Assembly (NCBI RefSeq): GCF_013408795.1
Contig: NZ_JACCCC010000001.1
Coordinates: 5,456,001 to 5,520,000 of the forward strand
Source: Spinactinospora alkalitolerans
GTDB lineage: Bacteria; Actinomycetota; Actinomycetes; Streptosporangiales; Streptosporangiaceae
DNA: 64,000 nucleotides
Direction of reading: 5' to 3'
The position numbers were made by a program, and so were the translations under genes. Below, piece by piece: positions 3,371-44,330 of this stretch (the stretch's first letter is position 1; each line of letters starts with the position of its first letter). Below the pieces are notes generated by a model, which worked only from the letters and a program-made list of their open reading frames with translations, did no database searches and was not told the DNA's origin.

Positions 3371-4570
3371 GTGAAGATCACCTTCCTCATCGGCAACGTC
3401 TACGGCATGGGCGGCACGATCCGCACCACCACGAATCTGGCCAATAATCTGGTCAAACGGCACGACGTCGAGATCGTCAGCATGGCGCAGAACGCCCATG
3501 AGCCCTTCTTCCAGATCAGCCCCGAGGTCCGGCTGCGCTCCCTGGCCCACAACCGGAGCTGGGCCGACCGCCCCGACCCCGGCCCCCGAGCCCGCGAGCT
3601 CGAACTCCAGCCGTCCGGCAACGTCCCGGCCAGCGAGAACAACCTGCACTCGTTCTTCAACGCCCACAGCGACGCCGTTCTCCGCGATTACCTCTCCAAG
3701 CTCGACAGCGACGTCGTCATCGCCACGCGGCCCGGGCTGAACTCCCTGCTCGCCCAGTGGGGGCCGAAGAAGGCCGTATGCATCGGCCAGGAGCACCTCA
3801 ACCTCGGCCAGCAGCCCGACGACGTCAAGGAGCACATCCGCGCCCACCACACCCGGCTCGACGGCCTCACCGTGCTGACCGACTCCGACCGGCGGGACTA
3901 CACCGACTTCCTGGGCAAGGACGGCGGCTGGGTCACCACCATGCCCAACCCGCTGCCCGACGGCTTCCACGCCCGATCCCGGCTGACCAACCCGATCATC
4001 GCCACGGCCGGGCGGCTGATCTGGGTCAAGCAGTACCCCAAGCTGGTCGAGGCGTTCGCCTCCGTGGCCGACAAGCACCCGGAATGGCAGTTGCGCATCT
4101 ACGGGCGCGGCATCGAGCGCGCCGGCATCCGCGCGGCCGTCGACCGCCTTGGCCTGAACAACAACGTCGTCCTCATGGGGCGCAACCCCGACATCACCTC
4201 GGAGTTCGCCAAGGCGTCCGTCGTCGCGGTGAGTTCGCGGCAGGAGGGCTTCGGGATGACCATCCTGGAGTCCTTCGCCGCCAGCGTCCCGGTCGTCAGC
4301 TTCGACTGCCCCTACGGCCCCCGAGAACTCATCACGCACGGGCACGACGGGCTGCTGGTGGCCGACCAGGACGTCGACGCCCTCGCCGCCGGGCTGCTGC
4401 GCCTGGTCGAGGACGCCGACGAGCGGCGCCGTCTGGGCGGCAACGCCCGGGACAAGGCCGCCGCGTTCCACATCGACTCCGTCACCGAACGCTGGGAGGC
4501 CTACCTCTCCCGGCTGGTGGCCGAGAAGCGCAGGGCAGGCGGTCTGCGCCGGTTCCTGCCCTGGTCCTGA
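3371..4570 (+). CDS. Glycosyltransferase family 4 (GT-B fold)
   Basis: 399 residues from a GTG three bases after the upstream stop. The N-terminal Rossmann half starts MKITFLIGNVYGMGGTIRTT with the glycine-rich acceptor loop. The C-terminal half contains AGRLIWVKQYPKLVEAF and the EX7E nucleotide-sugar signature in QEGFGMTILESFAASVPVVS, about residues 285-305. These are hallmarks of retaining GT4 enzymes such as those making teichoic-acid-like or other surface glycans. Donor and acceptor cannot be read from sequence. No membrane segment is present, so it should act at the cytoplasmic face. The stop is followed after 5 bp by a family A intergenic repeat that runs to the convergent glpD gene. 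Confidence 0.9.
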   Translation: MKITFLIGNVYGMGGTIRTTTNLANNLVKRHDVEIVSMAQNAHEPFFQISPEVRLRSLAHNRSWADRPDPGPRARELELQPSGNVPASENNLHSFFNAHSDAVLRDYLSKLDSDVVIATRPGLNSLLAQWGPKKAVCIGQEHLNLGQQPDDVKEHIRAHHTRLDGLTVLTDSDRRDYTDFLGKDGGWVTTMPNPLPDGFHARSRLTNPIIATAGRLIWVKQYPKLVEAFASVADKHPEWQLRIYGRGIERAGIRAAVDRLGLNNNVVLMGRNPDITSEFAKASVVAVSSRQEGFGMTILESFAASVPVVSFDCPYGPRELITHGHDGLLVADQDVDALAAGLLRLVEDADERRRLGGNARDKAAAFHIDSVTERWEAYLSRLVAEKRRAGGLRRFLPWS

Positions 4571-4575
4571 CCTCG

Positions 4576-4961
4576 CCGATCTTGATCTTGGGTTTCAACC
4601 TCGGCCCCGGGATGAAGTAGGCGCGCGGGTGGGTCCCCTCCACCTCGACCCCAGGGGACCGTGAAGGTCGGCCCCAGGAGTGAGGGCGCGCGGGTGGGCG
4701 ATTCTCTCGCGTGGCCGAAGGCCCCATAGACGGAAAATCGCCCTCCCACGCGCGAAGCGCACGCCGACACCCTGGGCACAGACCGACACCCCGGTTTCGG
4801 CCCGGCGCCCAAGCAGGCGGCGTGGGCTGCGCGGCGCCGGGGCGATCCCTGTAGGGGGCCTACGGCCACACGAGAGGATCGCCCGGTCACCGCGGATCCC
4901 TCCTGTGGTTGAGGCTTCAAAACCCCCAGTGGTCGAGGTTGAAACTCACGGTCAAGATCGG
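4576..4961 (-). repeat. Intergenic repeat family A, copy 1 (full length, with terminal inverted repeats)
   Basis: A 386-bp block between the stops of the glycosyltransferase (4570) and glpD (4968). Its outer 31 bp at 4576-4606 and 4931-4961 are inverted copies matching at 27 positions. Inside are two stem-loop modules. One has arms near 4693-4703 and 4736-4749 around GGCCGAAGGCC (4713-4723). The other has arms GGGCGATCC (4840-4848) and GGATCGCCC (4876-4884) around GGCCTACGGCC (4857-4867). Its reverse complement aligns closely with copy 4 (43738-44330) and partly with copies 2 and 3. It has no coding frame resembling a protein. No clear target duplication is seen. Confidence 0.8.
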
Positions 4962-4967
4962 CGCCGG

Positions 4968-6692
4968 TCAGCTCACCCTCATGCTGCGGGTCTCGGGGAC
5001 GATGTCGGGGGCGCCGTGCTGGACGGCGTCGGCCTCGTGGTCGCTGTCCTGCTCCTGGGCGGCGCGCTCGGCCTCGATGCGTTTGCGGTAGTACTCGGCC
5101 TCGCGCTTGACCTGCTCGTCGTCCCAGCCCAGGGGCCCGGCCATCAGCCGGGCGGCCTCCTCGGCCACCGCGAGGCCGCGGTCCCAGGTCTCGATCGAGA
5201 CGTGCGTGCGGCGCGACAGCACGTCGTCGAGGTGGCGCGCGCCCTCGTGGAGGACCGCGTAGACGACATCGGCGCGCAGGTAGTCGTCGGCGCCGGTCAG
5301 CGGCTCCTTCAGGTCGGGGCGCTCGGCGATGAGCGCGAGGACCTCGTGGACCATCGACCCGTAGCGGCGCAGCAGGTGCTGGACCCGTGACACGTGCACG
5401 CCGGACTCGCGGGCGAGCTTCCTGCGCTGGTTCCACAGCGCCGCGAAGCCGTCGGCCCCGGCCAGCGGCACCCTGTCGGTGACCGACTCCGGAACGCCGC
5501 CGCCGAGCCCGTGCGCGACCGCGTCGACGGCGTCCTTGGCCATGACCCGGTAGGTGGTGTACTTGCCGCCGGCGATCAGCACCAGGCCCGGAACGGGGTG
5601 GGCGACGGTGTGCTCCCGCGACAGCTTGGAGGTCTCGTCGGACTCCCCCGACAGCAGCGGGCGCAGCCCCGCGTACACGCCCTCAACGTCGTCCCTGGTC
5701 AACGGCACCCGCAGCACCTGGTTGACGTGGTCGAGGACGTAGTCGATGTCGGTGCGGCTGGCCGCGGGGTGCGCCTTGTCCAGGTCCCAGGAGGTGTCGG
5801 TGGTGCCGATGATCCAGTGCCGCCCCCACGGGATGACGAACAGCACGCTCTTCTCGGTGCGCAGGATCAGACCCGACGACGCCTGGACCCGGTCGCGCGG
5901 CACGACGAGATGGATCCCCTTGGACGCGCTGACGTGGATCTGGCCGCGCCCGCCGACCATCTCCTGGATGTCGTCGGTCCACACGCCGGCGGCGTTGACC
6001 ACCTGCTTGGCCCGGATCTCGAACTCCTCGCCGGACTCCAGGTCCTGCGCCTTCGCCCCGGTGACGTGCTCGCCCTCGCGCAGGAACCCGACCGCCTGCA
6101 CGCGCGAGGCGATGCGCGCCCCGAAGGAGGCGGCCGTGCGCAGCAGGGTCACGACGTAGCGGGCGTCGTCGACCTGGGCGTCCCAGTACTGCACCGCCCC
6201 GACGAACGCGTCGCGGCGCAGCGCCGGGAAGATCCGCATGGCTCCCCCGCGCGTGAGGTGCCGGTGGTGCGGCAGGCCGCGGGAGGTACCCATGGTCATG
6301 GACAGCGTGTCGTAGAGCGCGACCCCGGCGCCGATGTAGGGGCGCTCCCAGTGCTTGGTGAACGGGAACAGGAACGGAACCGGCCGCACCAGGTGCGGGG
6401 CCAGGCGCTGCAGCAGCAGCCCGCGCTCCGTCAGCGCCTCGCGGACCAGCTCGAAGTCCAACTGCTCCAGGTAGCGCAGGCCGCCGTGGATCAGCTTGCT
6501 GGACCTGCTGGAGGTGCCCGCGGCGAAGTCGCGGGCCTCGATCAGCCCCACGGACAGCCCGCGCGACACGGCGTCCAGCGCAACGCCGGCGCCGACGACG
6601 CCGCCGCCCACCACCAGGACGTCGAGCTCGTTCTCCGCCATGTGCGCGAGCGCGCCGGCGCGCTCTTCGGGCCCCATACGCGCTGCCGTCAT
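4968..6692 (-). CDS. glpD: Aerobic glycerol-3-phosphate dehydrogenase (FAD)
   Basis: 574 residues. An N-terminal FAD-binding dinucleotide fold (VVGGGVVGAGVALDAVSRG, residues 27-45) is followed by the family motif SSRSSKLIHGGLRYLEQLDF. A later GGKYTTYRVMAKDAVD segment and a C-terminal helical cap complete the GlpD/GlpA architecture. The enzyme oxidises sn-glycerol 3-phosphate to dihydroxyacetone phosphate and passes electrons to quinones at the membrane. There is no glpF or glpK beside it. The start ATG at 6692 has GGAAGG about 10 nt upstream. The gene converges on the glycosyltransferase, and its stop sits 7 bp from repeat family A copy 1. The upstream spacer (6693-6837) contains a TATACC stretch that could be a -10 box. 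Confidence 0.95.
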   Translation of the reverse strand: MTAARMGPEERAGALAHMAENELDVLVVGGGVVGAGVALDAVSRGLSVGLIEARDFAAGTSSRSSKLIHGGLRYLEQLDFELVREALTERGLLLQRLAPHLVRPVPFLFPFTKHWERPYIGAGVALYDTLSMTMGTSRGLPHHRHLTRGGAMRIFPALRRDAFVGAVQYWDAQVDDARYVVTLLRTAASFGARIASRVQAVGFLREGEHVTGAKAQDLESGEEFEIRAKQVVNAAGVWTDDIQEMVGGRGQIHVSASKGIHLVVPRDRVQASSGLILRTEKSVLFVIPWGRHWIIGTTDTSWDLDKAHPAASRTDIDYVLDHVNQVLRVPLTRDDVEGVYAGLRPLLSGESDETSKLSREHTVAHPVPGLVLIAGGKYTTYRVMAKDAVDAVAHGLGGGVPESVTDRVPLAGADGFAALWNQRRKLARESGVHVSRVQHLLRRYGSMVHEVLALIAERPDLKEPLTGADDYLRADVVYAVLHEGARHLDDVLSRRTHVSIETWDRGLAVAEEAARLMAGPLGWDDEQVKREAEYYRKRIEAERAAQEQDSDHEADAVQHGAPDIVPETRSMRVS

Positions 6693-7725: not shown

Positions 7726-7849
7726 GGACACCTCAACTCGTGACGGGGGCACTCGGCGCGGAGAGGGCGGACACGGTCGACCGGGGAACAACCTACTGGA
7801 CGGGGCCGGGCCGGCACAGACCCGTGCGCCGTCGCGTTCTTCGCGGATC

Positions 7850-8147
7850 TCGGATTCGGGCCTTGGCCTCAGGGGGTTGCGACCCCGGCCCCGGGAAGGA
7901 ATCGCGGCCCCCTCGTGTGGCCGAAGGCCCATCGAGTGAACCACGCATCCGTGCGTGAAGCAGACCTGTCGCCTTGGGCACACACCGAAACCACGGTTTC
8001 GGCCTGGACCGCAAAACATCCGATGTGCTTCGCGCGGAGCCGGACACCCCGCCGAAACGGGCCTACGGCCACACGGCGGGACCGCCCGTTCACCGCGGGC
8101 CCATGGTCGAGGCCCGAACCCCCTGCGGTCAAGGACGGCAGAAGAGG
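7850..8147 (-). repeat. Intergenic repeat family A, copy 2
   Basis: About 300 bp between the lytic transglycosylase start and the guaB3 stop. It contains two of the family cores, GGCCGAAGGCC (7919-7929) and GGCCTACGGCC (8060-8070). A segment beside the second core aligns, reverse-complemented, with the gcggtgaccgggcg-type flank of copies 1 and 4. Its ends are only imperfectly inverted. This is the one copy that lies 5' of a gene rather than between convergent stops; it is also immediately 3' of guaB3. Boundaries are approximate. Confidence 0.6.
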
Positions 8148-11083: not shown

Positions 11084-11126
11084 CCGTGGCCGCCGCCGCG
11101 GTGTTCCGCCGCGGCGGCGGCCACGG
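11084..11126 (-). terminator. Hairpin terminator after the sugar dehydrogenase gene
   Basis: Perfect 18-bp inverted repeat, arms 11084-11101 and 11109-11126, loop 7 nt, all G/C-rich. It begins about 68 nt downstream of the sugar dehydrogenase stop on the minus strand. No U-tract follows, as is usual in high-GC actinobacteria. The rest of 10865-11193 holds only the guaB upstream region and no gene I can support. Confidence 0.75.
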
Positions 11127-12771: not shown

Positions 12772-13162
12772 TCTCTCTCCTGAGAATACGGATTGCACTC
12801 ACTCGACACGCGAATCCCCCGATGTACCACTCGTGTTGAGAGTGAACTCTGGCGTCTAGAGGGTAAACCGTTGGCTGTGACGGCCGCCAGGGCGGTTTTT
12901 TCACGACCGTGGCGTTATGGATTCGCGGTGGCGGGCACAGTGGATACCGCATTCCGCCTTTACCGCGGTTCCTCGGCCTCGGTCTCGCATGGCGACCCGC
13001 CGGTGGACTGACTGGGCGTTTTGCGTTGAAGCAGCGTCGGAAAGACCGGTCGGGCCATGGCGAAAGCCGATGCGCTTGGGCGGGCGCCGGGGTCCACGGT
13101 CTCCCGTTCACCACAGCAGGGCCTGGAAACAGCGCCGGCCCTCTCCCATCACCGTCTAGACC
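12772..13162. other. Spacer between sugar dehydrogenase gene and IS element; no gene seen
   Basis: About 390 bp with no supportable coding frame. Just upstream of the dehydrogenase start is an imperfect inverted repeat (CACTCACTCGACACG against CGTGTTGAGAGTG, roughly 12797-12850) that could be a regulator site. The last 10 bp (CGTCTAGACC, 13153-13162) are the left target duplication of the IS. The remainder is featureless G/C-rich sequence. Confidence 0.5.
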
Positions 13163-13228
13163 CAATGCCGTTCAGTTAGGGGCTGATGTGCCTTGTCAAC
13201 CCCGGCCCCTGCCCCCTGGAGCATGAAG

Positions 13229-13286
13229 AAGGGGTTCCCTGGTAGAACAGTCATCTCTCACAACGCCTGTCACCAGGGAACCCCTT
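13229..13286 (+). promoter_or_regulatory. Stem-loop covering the transposase start
   Basis: AAGGGGTTCCCTGGT at 13229-13243 is the exact complement of 13272-13286 (15 bp, 28-nt loop). The right arm contains the AGGGA ribosome-binding site and the first two bases of the TTG start of the transposase. A transcript entering from flanking DNA would fold and hide the start. Sequestration of the transposase start in outside transcripts is known for IS10, IS50 and IS231A, so a similar protective role is inferred here. Confidence 0.6.
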
Positions 13287-14622
13287 GCCCGACCATTGTG
13301 CCACGACCCGCGAAGTCCGCTCCGCCCCCAGCGTCTTCGCCCCCGGCCACCTGGGAGAACTCACCCAGATCGTGCCCTTCGAGATGGTCGACGCCGTGCT
13401 CGCCGAGCGCGGCAGACACCACCAGCGACTCCGTCTCCTGCCCGCCCGCGTCGTGGTGTACCTGCTCCTGGCAGGTGGACTGTTCGCCCCCTTGGGCTGG
13501 ACCGCGATCTGGCGCAAACTCACCAGCGGCCTGAACCTGACCCCCCGCCCCACCGCCTCGGCGCTGTTCTACGCCCGCAAACGCCTGGGCCCCGCACCCC
13601 TCAAAGCCCTGTTCACCCTCCTGGCCGACCCCACCCACACCGCCCACCGGTTCAAAGGGCTGCTGGTGTGCGCCATCGACGGCACCCTGCTGGACGTGCC
13701 CGCCTCAGCAGCCAACCGGAGTGTGCACCGCTCCCAGGGAGCGACCCGCTGGGCCGGGGCGGGCTACCCCCAGCTACGGCTGCTGGCCCTGGTAGCGACC
13801 GGCTCGCGCGCACTCCTGGCAGCCACGTTCGGCCCCGTCCGCCACGGCGAGACGGCCTACGCGCCCGCCCTGTGCCAGGCGATGGGCCCAGGCCGGCTGG
13901 TCCTGGCCGACCGCGGCTTTGACGCCGCCACCGTGCTGGAAGAGTTCACCGCGACCGGAGCCGAGATACTCGTGCGCATGAGCGCCGGCAGCAACCCCCG
14001 ACGGCTACGCCGACTCAAGGACGGGACCTGGCTGGTCATGCGCGGCAAGCGGCGGCTACGGCTGATCGAGGCACAGATCACCATCGCCACCGGCCAGGGC
14101 CAAAGCACCGGCCGCTACCGGTTGGCCACCACCCTGGTCGACGTCGACCGCTACCCGGCTACCGACCTGGTGGCCCTGTACCACCAGCGGTGGGAGATCG
14201 AGACCGCCTACGGTGAGCTGAAGTCCTCCCTGCTCGGCCGCCGGGTGCTGCGGGCCAAGGACCCCGAAGGGCTGGAGCAGGAGGTGTGGGCGCTGCTGGC
14301 GACCTACCAGGTGGTGCGGTACGCGATCGCTGACGCGGTGACCGCCACCGGCCACAGCCCGCTCCAAGCGAGTTTCACCGTGGCGGTCGAGGCCGCCCGG
14401 GACTGCTTGGTCCGGGCCGAGAACACCATCGCCGGCGAGCGGGTCGACCTGCGGGGGGTGATCGGGCAGCAGGTGTTGGCGAACCTGCTGCCCCAGCGGC
14501 GTCTGCGGACGGCGCCGCGGGTGGTCAAACGCGCGATCTCGAAGTACCACGCCCGCTCCAACGGGGTAGACCGCACTACCTACAAAGCCACCGTGGACAT
14601 CACGGTGTTGACAGAGCCCTGA
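13285..14622 (+). CDS. IS4-family DDE transposase
   Basis: 445 residues beginning at a TTG preceded by AGGGA. The N-terminal 120 residues resemble the IS4 transposase N-terminal domain (VFAPGHLGELTQIVPFEMVD). The DDE catalytic core follows: first Asp in CAIDGTLLDVP (about residue 132), second Asp in RLVLADRGFD (about 210), and the C1 region YHQRWEIETAYGELK near residue 300. The last matches the Y-2-R-3-E-6-K signature of IS4 exactly and contains the catalytic Glu. No frameshift or stop is present, so it should be functional. Translation probably depends on opening the stem-loop over its start. Confidence 0.95.
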   Translation: MPDHCATTREVRSAPSVFAPGHLGELTQIVPFEMVDAVLAERGRHHQRLRLLPARVVVYLLLAGGLFAPLGWTAIWRKLTSGLNLTPRPTASALFYARKRLGPAPLKALFTLLADPTHTAHRFKGLLVCAIDGTLLDVPASAANRSVHRSQGATRWAGAGYPQLRLLALVATGSRALLAATFGPVRHGETAYAPALCQAMGPGRLVLADRGFDAATVLEEFTATGAEILVRMSAGSNPRRLRRLKDGTWLVMRGKRRLRLIEAQITIATGQGQSTGRYRLATTLVDVDRYPATDLVALYHQRWEIETAYGELKSSLLGRRVLRAKDPEGLEQEVWALLATYQVVRYAIADAVTATGHSPLQASFTVAVEAARDCLVRAENTIAGERVDLRGVIGQQVLANLLPQRRLRTAPRVVKRAISKYHARSNGVDRTTYKATVDITVLTEP

Positions 14623-14762
14623 CTTCCTTAACTGAACGGCATTGCGTCTAGACCCGGCGGCCCCTGGGCCAGTGGGGCACCGCACAGTAGGGGCCCGGGC
14701 GCACGCGCGAGGGGCAGCGGCGGCCGCGGGGACCAGGGAACGTCGGGGCGTGGCGGGCGCGG

Positions 14763-15404: not shown

Positions 15405-15474
15405 ACGTACACACTTACACGTCACGATTAACGGCAACAGAATGATCACATTTAGGGCGTTTGTCCCCAAAAGC

Positions 15475-15508
15475 ATGCGTGCCCCGGAGTGTGATCCGGG
15501 GCACGCAT
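15475..15508 (-). terminator. Terminator of the groES-groEL operon
   Basis: Perfect 13-bp stem (ATGCGTGCCCCGG at 15475-15487 and its complement at 15496-15508) with an 8-nt loop. It lies 66 nt after the groEL stop on the minus strand and just before the sigma-factor promoter region. No U-tract. Confidence 0.8.
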
Positions 15509-15573
15509 GATAGTGCGCACAACCGCCGCGGATGCGGACCGGCCGCGCCGGCCGGCCGCGCCCGCGGTCTTCG

Positions 15574-21836: not shown

Positions 21837-22085
21837 GCGGTCGGGGTCGGCCCGGCGGTTTCCGGTGGTGGTCGCAGCGGGGTGGGCGATGGTTGCCCTC
21901 CAGGCCCTTCAGGCCCTTCAGGCTCTGCTGAGCCGCTGCGGGCCTGGTGGGGGCTGTTGTCAGGCGCGAAGCGTCCGCCGGCGCGCTGACGGCGGCCCTC
22001 CAGGTCACCGTTGGTGCACGGAAAGCCCGCGGCCACGGTCTCCGACACCACGCAGCCGTTGCGACACCCCTTGAAACCACCGAGC
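21837..22085 (-). repeat. Intergenic repeat family B, copy 1
   Basis: Two blocks of this region, read on the minus strand, match the plus strand at 33297-33395. One block (about 21861-21915) matches at roughly 50 of 54 positions. The other (about 22050-22080, GGTGGTTTCAAGGG and the following CAACGGCTG-like stretch) matches at most positions. About 110 bp of intervening sequence in this copy is missing from the other. It lies between the convergent coiled-coil and trans-sulfuration genes. The rest of the 21799-22290 spacer shows no gene. Confidence 0.65.
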
Positions 22086-30874: not shown

Positions 30875-31378
30875 ATGGCCGCGGAGGTGCGCGTCGGCAC
30901 CGGAATCGAGATCCCGCCGGTCGACGAGGGCAGGCGCTGGGTCGTGGGAGCCGTGATCACCGACGGCCGGGGCCGGGCCTTCGCGCAGCGCCGCGCGCCG
31001 CACCGGCGGATCTTCCCCGATTCCTGGGACATCGTCGGCGGGCACGTCGAGGCCGGCGAGACCGTCCTGGAGGCGCTGGGCCGCGAGATCGCCGAGGAGA
31101 CCGGCTGGGCGCTCACCGAGGTCGTCGCCGACCTCGGCAGCCTGGTGTGGACGCCGGACGACGGGATCGAGCGCTTCGAGGTCGACTACCTGGTCCGGGT
31201 CGAGGGCGACCTGGACGCTCCCGCCCTGGAATGGGACAGGCACACCGAGTTCGCCTGGGTCGGCGACGACCAGCTCGACCTGCTCGCCGACCGTAACGAC
31301 CCCACCCATACATTCGTCGCCGACATCGTGGCGCTGGGTTTGACCTTGAGTTCTGACCTCGGCCATCGGGGGTCGTGA
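30875..31378 (+). CDS. NUDIX hydrolase
   Basis: 167 residues. The ATG at 30875 has GGGGAG 9 nt upstream. The NUDIX box GGHVEAGETVLEALGREIAE, continuing ETGWAL, spans about residues 54-79 and matches the G-x5-E-x7-RE-x2-EE-x-G pattern. It should cleave a nucleoside diphosphate linked to another moiety; substrate unknown. The last ten or so codons (TLSSDLGHRGS) lie inside repeat family A copy 3, so the present C-terminus appears to be supplied by the repeat. It converges on nnr. Confidence 0.88.
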   Translation: MAAEVRVGTGIEIPPVDEGRRWVVGAVITDGRGRAFAQRRAPHRRIFPDSWDIVGGHVEAGETVLEALGREIAEETGWALTEVVADLGSLVWTPDDGIERFEVDYLVRVEGDLDAPALEWDRHTEFAWVGDDQLDLLADRNDPTHTFVADIVALGLTLSSDLGHRGS

Positions 31379-31583
31379 AACCCCAGCCCAAGGACGCAAG
31401 CCCGCGGTGACCGGGCGACGGTGCACGCCGCCCCCGCCCTCAGGGGGTCGAAGTGGAGGGGGCCCACCCGCGCGCCCTCCCTCCTGGGGTCGGCCTTCAC
31501 GACCCCCTGGAGTCAAGGTGGAGGGGCCCACTCGCGCGCCCACTCCGTCCCGGGGCCGAGGTTGAAACCCAAGTTGAAGCGGG
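31337..31583 (+). repeat. Intergenic repeat family A, copy 3 (short form)
   Basis: About 247 bp. The left end (31340-31364) matches one terminus of copy 1 at about 20 of 25 positions. The right end (about 31554-31579) carries the GAGGTTGAAACCCAAG terminus shared with copy 1. The inner block with CTCCTGGGGTCGGCCTTCACG aligns with copies 1 and 4. The GGCC-N3-GGCC hairpin cores are absent, so this is a shortened version. It begins inside the 3' end of the NUDIX gene and runs almost to the convergent nnr stop. Confidence 0.7.
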
Positions 31584-31619
31584 CACGCGAACTCGGGAAC
31601 CGGCCGAGGGGCGGGGCTT

Positions 31620-33110
31620 TCAGCCGAGCACCGCGCGCAGTGCGGCGGGGACGGCGTCGACGAGGTCGGAGGCCGAGATGGCCGCGCCTCCGTGGGCGAG
31701 GCGGGCGGCGAGGCCGTGCACGTAGGCCCCGCACGTGGCGGCGTCCCTCGGGGGCAGGCCGGCGGCCAGCAGGGCGCCGATGAAACCCGCCAGCACGTCG
31801 CCGGTCCCGGCCGTGGCCAGCAGCGGAGTGCCGGTGGGGTTGACGACCGCCGGCCGGCCCGGCTCGGCGATGACCGTGGTGGAACCCTTCAGCAGGACCG
31901 TGCAGCCGTAGGCGTCGGCGGCGCGGGCGGCGTGGTCGAGGCGGCGGGCCTCGATGTCGGCGCGCTCGGTGCCGGGCAGCAGCCGGGCCAGCTCACCCGC
32001 GTGCGGGGTCAGCAGAGTGGGCGCCGCCCGCTCACTGACCAGGTGGGGGCGCTTGGCGAGCAGGGTGATGGCGTCGGCGTCGAGCAGCACCGGCAGATCG
32101 GCGCCGAGGACGGTCTCCAGTTCCACGACGGCGGCCGGGTGCAGTCCGCGGCCGGGGCCGACCACCCACGCCGCCACGCGACGGGGCAGGCTGCCCGCAG
32201 GATCGGTCGGGTCGAGGACCGAGACGACGGCCTCGGGCCAGCGGTTCAGCACCTCGGCCGCCGCCACCTCCTGGCCGACGTAGCGGACCATCCCGACGCC
32301 GCCGCGCAGCGCCCCCCCGACGCAGAGCACGGCGGCACCCCGGTAGCGGTCGCTGCCGGAGGCCACGGCGAGGACGCCGCGGCGGTACTTGTCGGACTCG
32401 GCCCCCGGGCGGGGCAGCAGCGCGGCGATGTCGTCGGCCTGCGGGGACTGCGCCCGGGGCTCCGGCAGTTCCGGGGCCAGCCCGATGTCGACGAACTCCA
32501 CCACGCCGGCGCGCTCGGCGCCGGGGGCGGCGAACAGACCGGGCTTGTGGGTGCCGAAGGTGACGGTGATGTCGGCGCGCACGGCGGGACCGTCGACGGC
32601 CCCGGTGTCGGCGTCGATGCCGCTGGGCAGGTCGACGGCGACGACCGTCGCGCCGGCCGCTCCGGCGCGGTCCGCGAGCGCGGCGTGCGGTTCGCGCAGG
32701 CCGCCGGTACCGCCGATGCCCACGAGCCCGTCGATGATGAGGTCGGCCGCCGCGATCTCGGCCCCGGCCGCGTCGGCGGCGGCCGCGTCGGCGCCGGACA
32801 CCTCCTGGGCCCGGCCGCCGGCCGCCCGCAGCGCCGCCAGCCCGCCCTCGTGCACGCGGGACCCGGCCAGGAGCGCCCGCACCCCCGCGCCCCGGCGCGC
32901 GAGCGCGGCCCCGGCGTACAGCGCGTCGCCGCCGTTGTCCCCGCTGCCGACGAGCAGCACCACGCGCGATCCGTACACCCCGGGCAGCACCCGCGCGCAC
33001 ACCGTGGCCAGCCCCGCGGCGGCCCTGCGCATGAGCGCGCCGTCCGGCAGCCGCGCCATGAGCGCGCCCTCGGCCTCGCGAACGGTGCCCACCGTGTGTG
33101 CGTAACGCAT
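31620..33110 (-). CDS. nnr: Bifunctional NAD(P)H-hydrate repair enzyme (epimerase + ADP-dependent dehydratase)
   Basis: 496 residues; the ATG at 33110 has GAGGAG 5 nt upstream. The N-terminal YjeF_N epimerase domain covers about residues 1-210, with VVLLVGSGDNGGDALYAGAA and VVAVDLPSGIDADTG. The C-terminal carbohydrate-kinase-like dehydratase domain carries LLTPHAGELARLL and LATAGTGDVLAGFIGALLAA. Together they epimerise and dehydrate damaged NAD(P)HX. This is a housekeeping metabolite-repair enzyme, usually next to alr in actinomycetes; here the PrsW-like and NUDIX genes intervene. Confidence 0.95.
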   Translation of the reverse strand: MRYAHTVGTVREAEGALMARLPDGALMRRAAAGLATVCARVLPGVYGSRVVLLVGSGDNGGDALYAGAALARRGAGVRALLAGSRVHEGGLAALRAAGGRAQEVSGADAAAADAAGAEIAAADLIIDGLVGIGGTGGLREPHAALADRAGAAGATVVAVDLPSGIDADTGAVDGPAVRADITVTFGTHKPGLFAAPGAERAGVVEFVDIGLAPELPEPRAQSPQADDIAALLPRPGAESDKYRRGVLAVASGSDRYRGAAVLCVGGALRGGVGMVRYVGQEVAAAEVLNRWPEAVVSVLDPTDPAGSLPRRVAAWVVGPGRGLHPAAVVELETVLGADLPVLLDADAITLLAKRPHLVSERAAPTLLTPHAGELARLLPGTERADIEARRLDHAARAADAYGCTVLLKGSTTVIAEPGRPAVVNPTGTPLLATAGTGDVLAGFIGALLAAGLPPRDAATCGAYVHGLAARLAHGGAAISASDLVDAVPAALRAVLG

Positions 33111-33296: not shown

Positions 33297-33395
33297 TGGT
33301 GGTTTCAAGGGTTGCCGCAGCGGCTCGGCAGGGGCTGGAGGGCAGCCATCGACCACCCCGCCGCAACCACCACCGGAAACCACCGGGCGGCTCGG
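33297..33395 (+). repeat. Intergenic repeat family B, copy 2
   Basis: The segment 33336-33391 matches the complement of 21861-21915 at about 50 of 54 positions. Upstream GGTGGTTTCAAGGG and GCAGCGGCTCGGCAG align with further blocks of copy 1. It lies in the 294-bp gap between the nnr start and the VOC stop. No coding frame spans it. Confidence 0.65.
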
Positions 33396-37705: not shown

Positions 37706-37716
37706 TCGCGACCGAT

Positions 37717-37760
37717 GTGAGGAGGGGGCCGGGTCCGCGCGGACCCGGCCCCCTCCTCAC
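37717..37760. terminator. Bidirectional terminator between glmS and glmM
   Basis: A perfect 44-bp palindrome (22-bp arms, 37717-37738 and 37739-37760), very G/C-rich. It starts 11 bp after the glmS stop and ends 39 bp before the glmM stop. It can terminate both convergent genes. Confidence 0.9.
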
Positions 37761-37799
37761 GTCACGGGCGGCGGAGGCCGCTCGGAGCCGTCGGCCCGG

Positions 37800-41094: not shown

Positions 41095-43650
41095 GTGACC
41101 CGTGACGTGGAAGACTTCGACGGCGCCGACTGGCCGCTGTTCACGCTGCCACCGCCGCCGTACGCGGTCGGAGCCCGCGTGCCGGGGCAAGCGGTCCCGC
41201 CGCCGCCCGAGCACGAGGACGGCGCACCCCCGGAGCCCGGCGACCCCCCACGGAGTCGGCACCGGGACAACGGTCCCGAGCGCCCCCCACGGAGGCAACG
41301 GACCGAAGGACGATCGCGGGGAACCAGGGCAGCGCCCGATCGATCGCCTTCTCCCCCGTCCCCGGCCTCCCCGGACGACCTGCCGCCCTCTCCCAGGGGC
41401 GCGGACCGGTTCTTCCCGGAACCGGCGGACCGCCCCGGCCGGAGGGGACTCGCAGGAGAATCGCAACTGCCGCCCAAGGACAGCCTCCGGAGTTCTCCCA
41501 TCGCACCGCATCCGAACGAGCCACACGACGGCGGCCCCGGCCAGACCGGGCAGCCGCAGCAGCCTCCAGCGCCCGCGAACCAGGAGTCGGCGGAGGAGAC
41601 CGCGCGGGCTCCGCGGCCGACTCCTCAGCAGCAGGGCGTCCCTCCCTGGGGCGATGTGCTCCAGCCCGATTCCCCGCCCCCCGCGCCGTCGGGTCCCCGG
41701 CAGGGCGGCGGCGGGTGGAACGCCCCTTCGGGCGCGCAGCGCCCTCCGCAGGGCCCGCCCCCCGGCTCCGCCCCGGGTCCGCAGCAGCCACCGCAGCCGG
41801 GACCACAGGGTCAACCGGGCCCCCGCGGACCGCAGGGCCCCGCCCCCCAGCAGCGACCCCGGCAGGGGCCGCCCACGGGCGCGCAGCAGCCTCCGCAAGG
41901 ACCACCGCAGGGGCCACCCCCCGGCGCCAACCCGCCCACCGGCGGACAGCACCCCATGCCAGGCCCCCAATCCGGCCCGCAGCAACCCGGCCCCCAATCC
42001 GGCCCCCAGCAACCCGGCCCCCAGCAGCCGGGCCCGCAGCAACCCCAGCAGCGCCCCGCCTGGCACGGCCGAGCACCCGGGCAACCGCCGCAGCAGGGCT
42101 TCCCGGAACAGCAGGGACCGCAGGCCCCCGGCGCGCCGCGTCCGCCGCAGGGGCCGCCCACGGGCGCGCAGCAGCCCCATCCGGGTACGGGCGCCCCGAT
42201 GGGAGGCCCCGGCGCCTCCGGCCCGCAGAGGCCGCCTCAGCCGCCACAGGGGGCACCTCGACCGCCGCAGGGCCCGCAGCAGCCCGGCCGTCCGCCCGGC
42301 GCCGGACTCCCGGCCCTCGCCGGCCCCGGACCGGCCTCGGGCCCGCAGCAGCCACCGCAGCCGGGACCACAGGGTCAACCGGGCCCCCGCGGACCGCAGG
42401 GCCCCGCCCCCCAGCAGCGACCCCGGCAGGGGCCGCCCACGGGCGCGCAGCAGCCTCCGCAAGGACCACCGCAGGGGCCACCCCCCGGCGCCAACCCGCC
42501 CACCGGCGGACAGCACCCCATGCCAGGCCCCCAATCCGGCCCGCAGCAACCCGGCCCCCAATCCGGCCCCCAGCAACCCGGCCCCCAGCAGCCGGGCCCG
42601 CAGCAACCCCAGCAGCGCCCCGCCTGGCACGGCCAGGCACCCGGGCACCCCCCGCTGCAGGGCAGGCTCATCCCCCCGAACGGCGGCGCGCCCGAGGCGC
42701 CGGGGGCCGAGCCGGCGTTCCCCTCGGACGCCGCGGAATCCACCCAGCACATCAACGCGGTGCCCGATGACGGCGCGACGCAGGCCATCCCGCCCGTGGG
42801 CGGCGAACCGGTCGGCGCCACCCAGGCGGTCCCGCCCGTGGCGGACGTCTTCGGCGGCCGCCCGATGTTCCGGGACGAGGCACCGCGCGGTGGTGGCGGC
42901 GGTGGCGGCGGTGGCGGCGGCGGCGGTGACAACAGCACCGCGGAGATCGACCTGTCGGGCTACGACGACTACGACGATCGTCCCCGCCGGAGCGGCCGCA
43001 CCAGGACGCTGCTGCTGGCGGCGGGCTTCGCGGTCCTGCTGCTCCTCGGTGGCGGCGGCGCGTTCTTCTTCGCGACGGGCTCCGGCCCCGACGCGGGCCT
43101 GGCGGCCTCCGAGTACGACGTCGCGAAGGTCTCCGACGAGTCCACCGACTCCGAGCCCCTGGGGATCGACGAACTGTTCTCCGTGCAGAGCATCGAGGTG
43201 GCCGGGGAGACGTTCACCCAGGTCCAGACCGACGACACCGACAAGTGCGAGACCGCCGCGCACGGCGACTACGGCCAGGTGCTCAACGACAACGGGTGCC
43301 GCCAGATCGTGCGGGCGTCCTACGTCAACGAGGACGGTTCCCGCGCGGTGACCGTCGGCGTGGCGGCGATGGCCGACGCCGACCAGGCCGGGGCCGCCCA
43401 GGAGGGGCAGGACCTCGCGGCCACGCAGTGGTTCGCCGGCCTGCCCGGCAAGGAGGACAGCGGCGCCGAGCGCCTCGACATCGCCGGGGGGCACGCCACC
43501 GGGGCGTCCTGGGGGCGCTACCTCGTCTTCACCCTCGCCGCCAACAGCGACGGCCGCCTACCGGAGGGCGAGACCCCGGAGCTGGCCGCCATCAGCGAGG
43601 AGTTCGTCAACGTGCCACTCGTCCCCCTGGGCGAACGCGCGACCGGCTGA
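41095..43650 (+). CDS. Pro/Gln/Gly-rich single-pass membrane protein with extracytoplasmic domain
   Basis: 851 residues from a GTG with GAGGAAG 6 nt upstream. Residues about 150-535 are Pro-Gln-Gly low complexity built from PQGPP-, GPQQPG-type units. A glycine run lies near 600-612. One membrane helix follows at about 637-662 (TLLLAAGFAVLLLLGGGGAF). The C-terminal 190 residues would be outside the cell and carry two Cys, in KCETAAHG and DNGCRQIVRASY, probably a disulfide. The disordered N-terminal part would be cytoplasmic. The coding region includes an exact 292-bp direct repeat. This layout is shared by many actinobacterial wall- or signalling-related proteins, but I do not recognise a named family. 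Monocistronic, with a terminator after it. Confidence 0.85.
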   Translation: MTRDVEDFDGADWPLFTLPPPPYAVGARVPGQAVPPPPEHEDGAPPEPGDPPRSRHRDNGPERPPRRQRTEGRSRGTRAAPDRSPSPPSPASPDDLPPSPRGADRFFPEPADRPGRRGLAGESQLPPKDSLRSSPIAPHPNEPHDGGPGQTGQPQQPPAPANQESAEETARAPRPTPQQQGVPPWGDVLQPDSPPPAPSGPRQGGGGWNAPSGAQRPPQGPPPGSAPGPQQPPQPGPQGQPGPRGPQGPAPQQRPRQGPPTGAQQPPQGPPQGPPPGANPPTGGQHPMPGPQSGPQQPGPQSGPQQPGPQQPGPQQPQQRPAWHGRAPGQPPQQGFPEQQGPQAPGAPRPPQGPPTGAQQPHPGTGAPMGGPGASGPQRPPQPPQGAPRPPQGPQQPGRPPGAGLPALAGPGPASGPQQPPQPGPQGQPGPRGPQGPAPQQRPRQGPPTGAQQPPQGPPQGPPPGANPPTGGQHPMPGPQSGPQQPGPQSGPQQPGPQQPGPQQPQQRPAWHGQAPGHPPLQGRLIPPNGGAPEAPGAEPAFPSDAAESTQHINAVPDDGATQAIPPVGGEPVGATQAVPPVADVFGGRPMFRDEAPRGGGGGGGGGGGGGDNSTAEIDLSGYDDYDDRPRRSGRTRTLLLAAGFAVLLLLGGGGAFFFATGSGPDAGLAASEYDVAKVSDESTDSEPLGIDELFSVQSIEVAGETFTQVQTDDTDKCETAAHGDYGQVLNDNGCRQIVRASYVNEDGSRAVTVGVAAMADADQAGAAQEGQDLAATQWFAGLPGKEDSGAERLDIAGGHATGASWGRYLVFTLAANSDGRLPEGETPELAAISEEFVNVPLVPLGERATG
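41779..42070 (+). repeat. 292-bp direct repeat, copy 1 (inside the Pro/Gln-rich gene)
   Basis: Identical base for base to 42343-42634, at a constant offset of 564 bp (compared line by line). Since 564 is a multiple of 3 the two copies are in the same frame and encode the same 97 residues. Each copy also contains shorter internal repeats (CCCAATCCGGCCC-type units). Identity at synonymous positions indicates a recent duplication or gene conversion. Confidence 0.95.
42343..42634 (+). repeat. 292-bp direct repeat, copy 2
   Basis: Second copy of the exact repeat described at 41779-42070. The 272 bp between the copies encode a related but non-identical Pro/Gln-rich stretch. Recombination between the copies would delete 564 bp in frame, so length variation of this protein between isolates is expected. 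Confidence 0.95.
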
Positions 43651-43737: not shown

Positions 43738-44330
43738 GGCTTGATGCGATCCCGGCCGCAACTGGGACCCGCGGTGACCGGACGACAGTACGCGCCGCCC
43801 CCGGCCCCAGGGGGTCGTGAAGCCCCAGCCCAAGGAGGGATCCGCGGTGACCGGGCGATCCTCTCGCGCGGCCGAAGGCCCATCAAGGGATCGCCCCGGC
43901 GCCGCGCCGCCCACGCCGCCACCGTGGGCGCCAGGACGCGACCGCGGTTTCGGCGCGCGGTGAAGAAACGGGCCGCCGTGCCCGCTCGCCTCGGCCACCG
44001 AGGGCGTGAGACACCGGCCACAGGAGTTTGAACCCCCACCCAAAGACTGAACGCACACCGCCACTCTGTGCGCCGGGTCGAAACCGCGGTGTCGGCCTGT
44101 ACCCATGGTGTCGGCGTGCGCTTCGCGCGCGGGTGGGCGATTTTGCGTCCACGGGCCTTCGGCCACGCGAGAGCATCGCCCACCCGCACGCCATCCCTCC
44201 TGGGGCCGGCCTTCACGACCCCCTGGAGCGGGCCTTCACGACCCTCTGGGGCGGGCGCACCTCCTGGGGTGGGCGCGCCACTTGGAATGGGCGCCGCTTG
44301 AGGCGGGCACGCCGCTCCGAGCGAGGACCA
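43738..44330 (+). repeat. Intergenic repeat family A, copy 4 (longest)
   Basis: About 590 bp between the terminator region after the Pro/Gln-rich gene and the truA stop. The first hairpin module has arms GGGCGATCC (43853-43861) and GGATCGCCC (43888-43896) around GGCCGAAGGCC (43870-43880). The second has arms GTGGGCGAT (44133-44141) and ATCGCCCAC (44175-44183) around GGCCTTCGGCC (44154-44164). The first module with flanks matches the complement of copy 1 at roughly nine of ten positions over 80 bp. The second, with the CTCCTGGGGCCGGCCTTCACG block, does so over about 130 bp. The CTTGAGGCGGGCACGC end resembles the outer side of copy 3. Its ends are not sharply defined. Confidence 0.75.

Follow-up and report, generated by a model that had tools for sequence, protein, structure and literature searches.

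Anatomy of the block between two converging genes

What is the DNA that fills the gap between two converging genes of Spinactinospora alkalitolerans, and how did it come to lie there? The stretch analyzed here (the window, 64,000 nucleotides) has a G+C content of 70.7% and corresponds to positions 5456001 to 5520000 of a 6,684,050-bp single-contig genome. According to the gene calls at 3371 to 4570 (+) and 4968 to 6677 (−), a glycosyltransferase gene whose stop codon ends at 4570 converges on a gene for a GlpD-like FAD oxidoreductase, whose stop codon has its low end at 4968; Pfam assigned the two neighbors to the glycosyltransferase and DAO/DAO_C families. The intergenic gap at 4571 to 4967 contains no called gene, in agreement with the initial annotation, which had described a block without coding capacity filling a convergent gap. 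We put the probability at about 0.72 that this block is a copy of a MITE-like, non-autonomous element (X) that is nested between the arms of a REP-like palindrome, was moved in trans, and makes 5-bp duplications.

The composite block occupies 4574 to 4963 and consists of a 364-bp element X (4587 to 4950, +) between two 13-bp arms of a separate 64-bp palindrome. The inverted ends and two GGCC-NNN-GGCC cores noticed initially are real. The outer inverted arms (4574 to 4611 and 4926 to 4963) are 38 nt long, 84% complementary, and 314 nt apart, the inner inverted pair (4696 to 4734 and 4846 to 4884) is 39 nt long at 85%, and the cores lie at 4713 to 4723 (GGCC-GAA-GGCC) and 4857 to 4867 (GGCC-TAC-GGCC). 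What had been read as a 31-bp terminal inverted repeat is indeed inverted, but it is not a single terminus, being a 13-bp palindrome arm joined to an X end of about 20 bp. Because this apparent terminus is two repeats joined, the limits of the element are unreadable from one copy.

On the left, the arm CGCCGATCTTGAT (4574 to 4586, +) is followed by an A-type inverted end of X, CTTGGGTTTCAACCTCGGCC (4587 to 4606, +). On the right, a B-type inverted end, CGTGAGTTTCAACCTCGACC (4931 to 4950, −), precedes an arm at 4951 to 4963 (−) that reads GTCAAGATCGGCG on the plus strand; both arms are common to the 64-bp palindrome family. Inverted repeats and copies elsewhere delimit a core A hairpin at 4686 to 4753 (+; apex GGCCGAAGGCC at 4713 to 4723) and, with approximate limits, a core B hairpin at 4833 to 4886 (−; apex GGCCTACGGCC at 4857 to 4867). 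Mapping of the ends and alignment of long forms to the window sequence identified this X as a shortened form, in which the centre between the cores (approximately 4754 to 4832) is partly deleted.

Three repeat modules, found alone or combined, make up such composites. The 64-bp REP-like palindrome begins CGCCGATC and has the structure CGCCGATCTTGACCTTG...CAAGGTCAAGATCGGCG (full form, CGCCGATCTTGACCTTGTCGGGGTTATCGCAACGTTTTCAGGCCCCACAAGGTCAAGATCGGCG). Element X starts CTTGAG or CGTGAG and has ends of about 20 bp with the pattern C(T/G)TGAGTTTCAACCTCGRCC, also given as C(T/G)TGAGTTTCAACCTCG; X-type ends occur 131 times genome-wide, versus 4 occurrences of a control pattern. In its interior, hairpin cores A and B lie in inverted orientation on either side of the centre; their counterparts in a diverged subtype are C1 and C2. 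The 68-bp outer module, which ends in ...GGTGGTTCTCT, adjoins the palindrome in some copies and could represent a third unit that moves or recombines.

The further copies reported within the window were confirmed at 43799 to 44226, 31330 to 31636, and 7912 to 8134 (best E about 1e-47). The first is a long-form copy of X (−), with limits set by alignment to the window block. At the second lies a 229-bp X (31345 to 31573, −) that has no full palindrome and is flanked by TTGAC (31340 to 31344) and TTGAA (31574 to 31578), and at the third a diverged C-type copy (7848 to 8134, +). The outer termini, which by the initial account should be shared, are not common to all copies. At 31340 to 31378, an X copy supplies the stop codon and roughly the dozen codons before it in the called NUDIX gene.

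Among the 27 copies with both ends mapped, X measured 90 to 585 bp between ends, mostly about 500 to 585, 290 to 365, 220 to 250, or 90 to 185 bp. Some copies have a chimeric single core that joins the left half of A to the right half of B, or the reverse, as would be expected if deletion ran between the two inverted palindromic cores; internal deletions of this sort could have produced the smaller size classes. Long copies are about 82 to 92% identical to each other, and since they differ by roughly 8 to 18%, the family looks old rather than young.

Probable insertion of X at a preferred site

In 14 of the 27 copies with both ends mapped, X lies beside the palindrome loop, within one arm. Deleting X together with exactly 5 bp best restored the palindrome at 13 of these 14 sites, and no other length did so (mean restoration score, 44.7 at n = 5 versus at most 39.6 at other n); at the remaining site, 3168559 to 3168724, the score does not discriminate between values of n. 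This restoration argues that X transposed into a preferred site, TTGAC/GTCAA, and duplicated 5 bp of the target; the site is present in both arms of the 64-bp palindrome. Sister palindromes within this genome show, base by base, what the empty target looks like. In the right arm, X was found with either its B end or its A end next to the loop, and in the left arm with its A end there, leaving out a few arm-side assignments that rested on weak loop scores; these three combinations of arm and orientation imply at least three separate insertions at the same base. The 14 palindrome sites do not represent 14 independent events, because composites may partly be copied as units.

Flanking repeats also occur at nonpalindromic sites. 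TTGAA is present on each side, exactly, at 1795410 to 1795989, and four of five bases match at 5487345 to 5487573 (window 31345 to 31573; TTGAC/TTGAA) and at 1466282 to 1466514 (TCTTC/TCTTT), with flanks matching poorly at the remaining nonpalindromic X sites. About six copies, including the one in the window, have arms on both sides, no loop, and 5-bp flanks that are inverted (e.g., TTGAT...GTCAA) rather than direct, so that the present form of the window copy and about five others is not that of a simple insertion. The two-arm form seen in the window may derive from recombination of a left-arm insertion with a right-arm insertion, or from loss of the palindrome loop.

Two-arm forms, the mosaic of modules, chimeric cores, and the finding of no mobility gene would all be accommodated if the palindromes and X amplified by recombination, hairpin-templated repair, or gene conversion, with no transposase at all. 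We consider this quite improbable, because exact 5-bp duplications at both fixed and unique sites are the mark of a transposase. If X is instead a nested MITE-like element, as we prefer, it would have been mobilized by a transposase that acted in trans, was lost or is unrecognized, and prefers TTGAC/GTCAA in 64-bp palindromes just downstream of stop codons.

Genome-wide copy number and position relative to genes

Copies elsewhere in the genome, anticipated by the initial annotation, were found in abundance. A sample of 2.06 Mb (31% of the genome), made up of the window and 100 stretches of 20 kb at even spacing, was searched iteratively with profiles built from the cores, the ends, and the palindrome; in it, X and/or the palindrome formed 90 clusters in 79 intergenic gaps. 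By extrapolation, there are about 250 loci per genome. BLAST of the block against the whole genome gave at least 94 matches at E<1e-5 (40 of 268 candidates scored), and GGCCGWAGGCC occurred 179 times, versus 56 for its reversed control.

Among gaps of at least 15 bp, an element was present in 40 of 239 between convergent genes, 33 of 804 between tandem genes, and 6 of 265 between divergent genes, an enrichment of convergent gaps (Fisher p about 1e-11) and a depletion of divergent ones. Within tandem gaps the element was nearer the upstream stop codon in 29 of 33 cases, and 3 of the 90 clusters lay mostly inside called genes, the individual boundaries of which are approximate because the calls come from a home-made hexamer model.

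Such a strong bias toward 3' ends and convergent gaps would suit elements that are kept for a function, either as bidirectional hairpin terminators or as 3'-end mRNA stabilizers, with their spread a by-product. This alternative is compatible with transposition of X. However, REP elements generally are reported to have the same convergent and tandem 3'-end bias (PMC3733652), so the bias by itself is no proof of function and fits tolerance alone; many convergent gaps also lack an element. X might survive mainly after stop codons if insertion there is least harmful.

Folding of the block and a possible role at transcript ends

RNA from the block folds 10 to 11 standard deviations below dinucleotide shuffles on both strands, in line with retention for function, but any near-palindrome must fold this strongly. 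Other observations also favor retention for function. In convergent gaps that contain an element, hairpins in the remaining DNA are weaker than those in element-free gaps of comparable length (11 cases only). A simple hairpin occupies the orthologous gap in several relatives, as read from their sequences. For core subtypes A, C1, and C2, the two sides of a stem pair better when both come from one copy than when they are combined across different copies of that subtype. Core B stems show no such difference, and palindrome arms show no within-copy covariation, both of which count against function. RNAalifold on an automatic alignment returned no compensatory pair, a null result attributable to right halves that align badly, and stem energies were therefore used instead.

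The bidirectional terminator role suggested initially found no direct support. At 4500 to 5050, no T-tract terminator was found, nor the combination of GC hairpin and T-run that marks an intrinsic terminator. Weighing both sides, we regard retention for function as an unlikely explanation of the elements. Their co-option as a hairpin barrier is possible, and under the preferred reading of a MITE-like element nested in palindromes, hairpins that end or protect transcripts could aid the survival of X.

A conserved core of 54 positions, together with the strong folding, might also be expected of a structured non-coding RNA gene family. This is the least probable reading considered here: the copy at 4574 to 4963 had no match in Rfam, no promoter-like site was found in the block, its inverted halves are near-symmetric, copies are mosaic and truncated, and among the genome sets searched the family occurs in a single genome.

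Mobility genes and comparison to known systems

A transposase-carrying element with the same ends, which would have completed the picture drawn initially, was not found. No autonomous element with X ends occurred in the sampled 38% of the genome, and no transposase lay between X ends among 100 listed of the 131 ends genome-wide (read by eye); a partner may have been lost or have diverged. An IS4-family insertion sequence in the window was considered as a partner of X and rejected, as its ends differ. This insertion sequence (13153 to 14651) is 99.9% identical to a copy at genome positions 1395238 to 1396736 that has an X cluster 30 bp away.

Palindromic, mosaic, high-copy, extragenic repeats at gene 3' ends could belong to a REPIN/BIME system driven by a RAYT (Y1 transposase). 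We judge this very improbable: the RAYT domain (PF01797, Y1_Tnp) had no match in the own genome but matched in 5 of 14 control genomes, the ends carry neither GTAG nor CGTC, and X has 5-bp duplications, which are unlike IS200/IS605-type transposition.

Tn3-derived TIMEs share with X the non-autonomous state, long inverted ends, mosaic formation, and a 5-bp duplication. Duplications of 5 bp are typical of the Tn3 family, and its 38-bp ends begin GGGG, whereas X ends start C(T/G)TGAG. Like other bacterial MITEs, X is short, non-coding, intergenic, and high in copy number, with inverted ends and target duplications of a constant 5 bp (inverted flanks instead in the window copy); it differs in that no same-end insertion sequence was found, in its long, hairpin-rich interior, and in having a fixed target inside another repeat. 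The MITE-like or REP-like identity proposed initially thus survives with respect to copy number, non-coding nature, inverted ends, 5-bp duplications, and a tie to REP-like palindromes, but the block is a mosaic and not one element.

Insertion into extragenic palindromes near gene ends is shared with the REP-targeting insertion sequences IS1397, ISKpn1, IS621, ISPpu9, ISPpu10, and ISRm22 (PMC1525189), but X is non-coding and its target is a 64-bp lineage-specific palindrome rather than a described REP. The palindrome resembles BIMEs, REPs, and REPINs in being extragenic and mosaic, with a convergent and tandem bias downstream of genes (PMC2817692, PMC3116915, PMC3733652). In described REP superfamilies, the unit measures 20 to 40 bp and carries GTAG or CGTC at one terminus (PMC3733652); here the units are larger, lack this tag, are accompanied by no RAYT gene, and have 5-bp duplications around X. 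This kind of bacterial repeat is already known, and the X family itself appears to be undescribed, with no described match in the open-licence literature, in keeping with the initial failure to recognize it. It is a new, lineage-restricted, old-looking MITE-like family nested in REP-like palindromes and not a RAYT-driven REPIN. As a layered repeat outside the usual proteobacterial models, it offers a case in which gene-end palindromes are a site-specific target for a second non-coding element.

Distribution among relatives

The genus was represented by the own genome only, and the relatives compared belong to other genera. Block DNA had no match in 200 other family genomes, and the exact palindrome pattern had none in 342. 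A covariance-model search of the core, as the initial annotation had suggested, was positive in the own genome and negative in 150 other family genomes. Plasmid and phage collections contained no block match, and viral contigs contained no match to the core motif. In named genomes, the single exact match to the core motif was on a Bacteroidales MAG contig and was judged to be chance.

X is cleanly absent from two orthologous gaps in related genera. A convergent gap of 454 bp with X corresponds to 21, 52, 64, and 92 bp in four related genera, and a gap of 92 bp with an end fragment has counterparts of 22 and 77 bp in two genera. For a third gap, which measures 263 bp and contains X, the counterpart in genome G021 is 130 bp long and holds that genus's own palindrome, and in a fourth pair the own gap is 532 bp and those of relatives are 301 to 561 bp. 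The window's orthologous gap in genome G044 is without the element and is not a clean empty site, because it holds 644 bp of unrelated DNA.

With up to 3 mismatches allowed, the arm of the G021 palindrome (GTTGATCTCGGGGATATCG) matched 129 sites in forward and 128 in reverse orientation (control, 0); it was present in both sampled genomes of its genus and in 0 of 79 others searched. In genus g22, the palindrome copies retrieved have near-identical arms around copy-specific loops, a combination that simple copy-and-paste transposition does not explain. It is a rather unlikely idea that each of the family's genera has its own palindrome at gene 3' ends, especially convergent ones, in at least 100 copies and without a recognized mobility gene. 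If so, such palindromes would serve as hairpin barriers specific to each genus and would offer a MITE safe landing pads.

Other repeats

The G021 palindrome (loci L201 to L210 and L175; also in genome G076, L211) is about 62 bp long and consists of GTTGATCTCGGGGATATCGACCGAAT, about 10 variable bases, and the reverse complement; the copies retrieved have different loops, and some variants of the arm appear on both sides of a single copy. In the own genome, the 68-bp outer module was also matched away from any listed X or palindrome cluster, for example, at genome positions 6009759 to 6009811 and 2644158 to 2644208.

Single long hairpins (75 to 96% complementary) lie between or beside genes at window positions 37714 to 37763, 15456 to 15527, and 11084 to 11126. 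The first two had no other copy in the sampled DNA and the third had weak similarities; all three look like ordinary gene-end hairpins. An inverted 59-bp pair (21850 to 21908 and 33330 to 33388; 90% identical) lies outside called genes and had no other copy in the sampled DNA. The window also contains a 340-bp direct repeat, 97% identical between 41760 to 42099 and 42324 to 42663, with partial repeats between the two copies.
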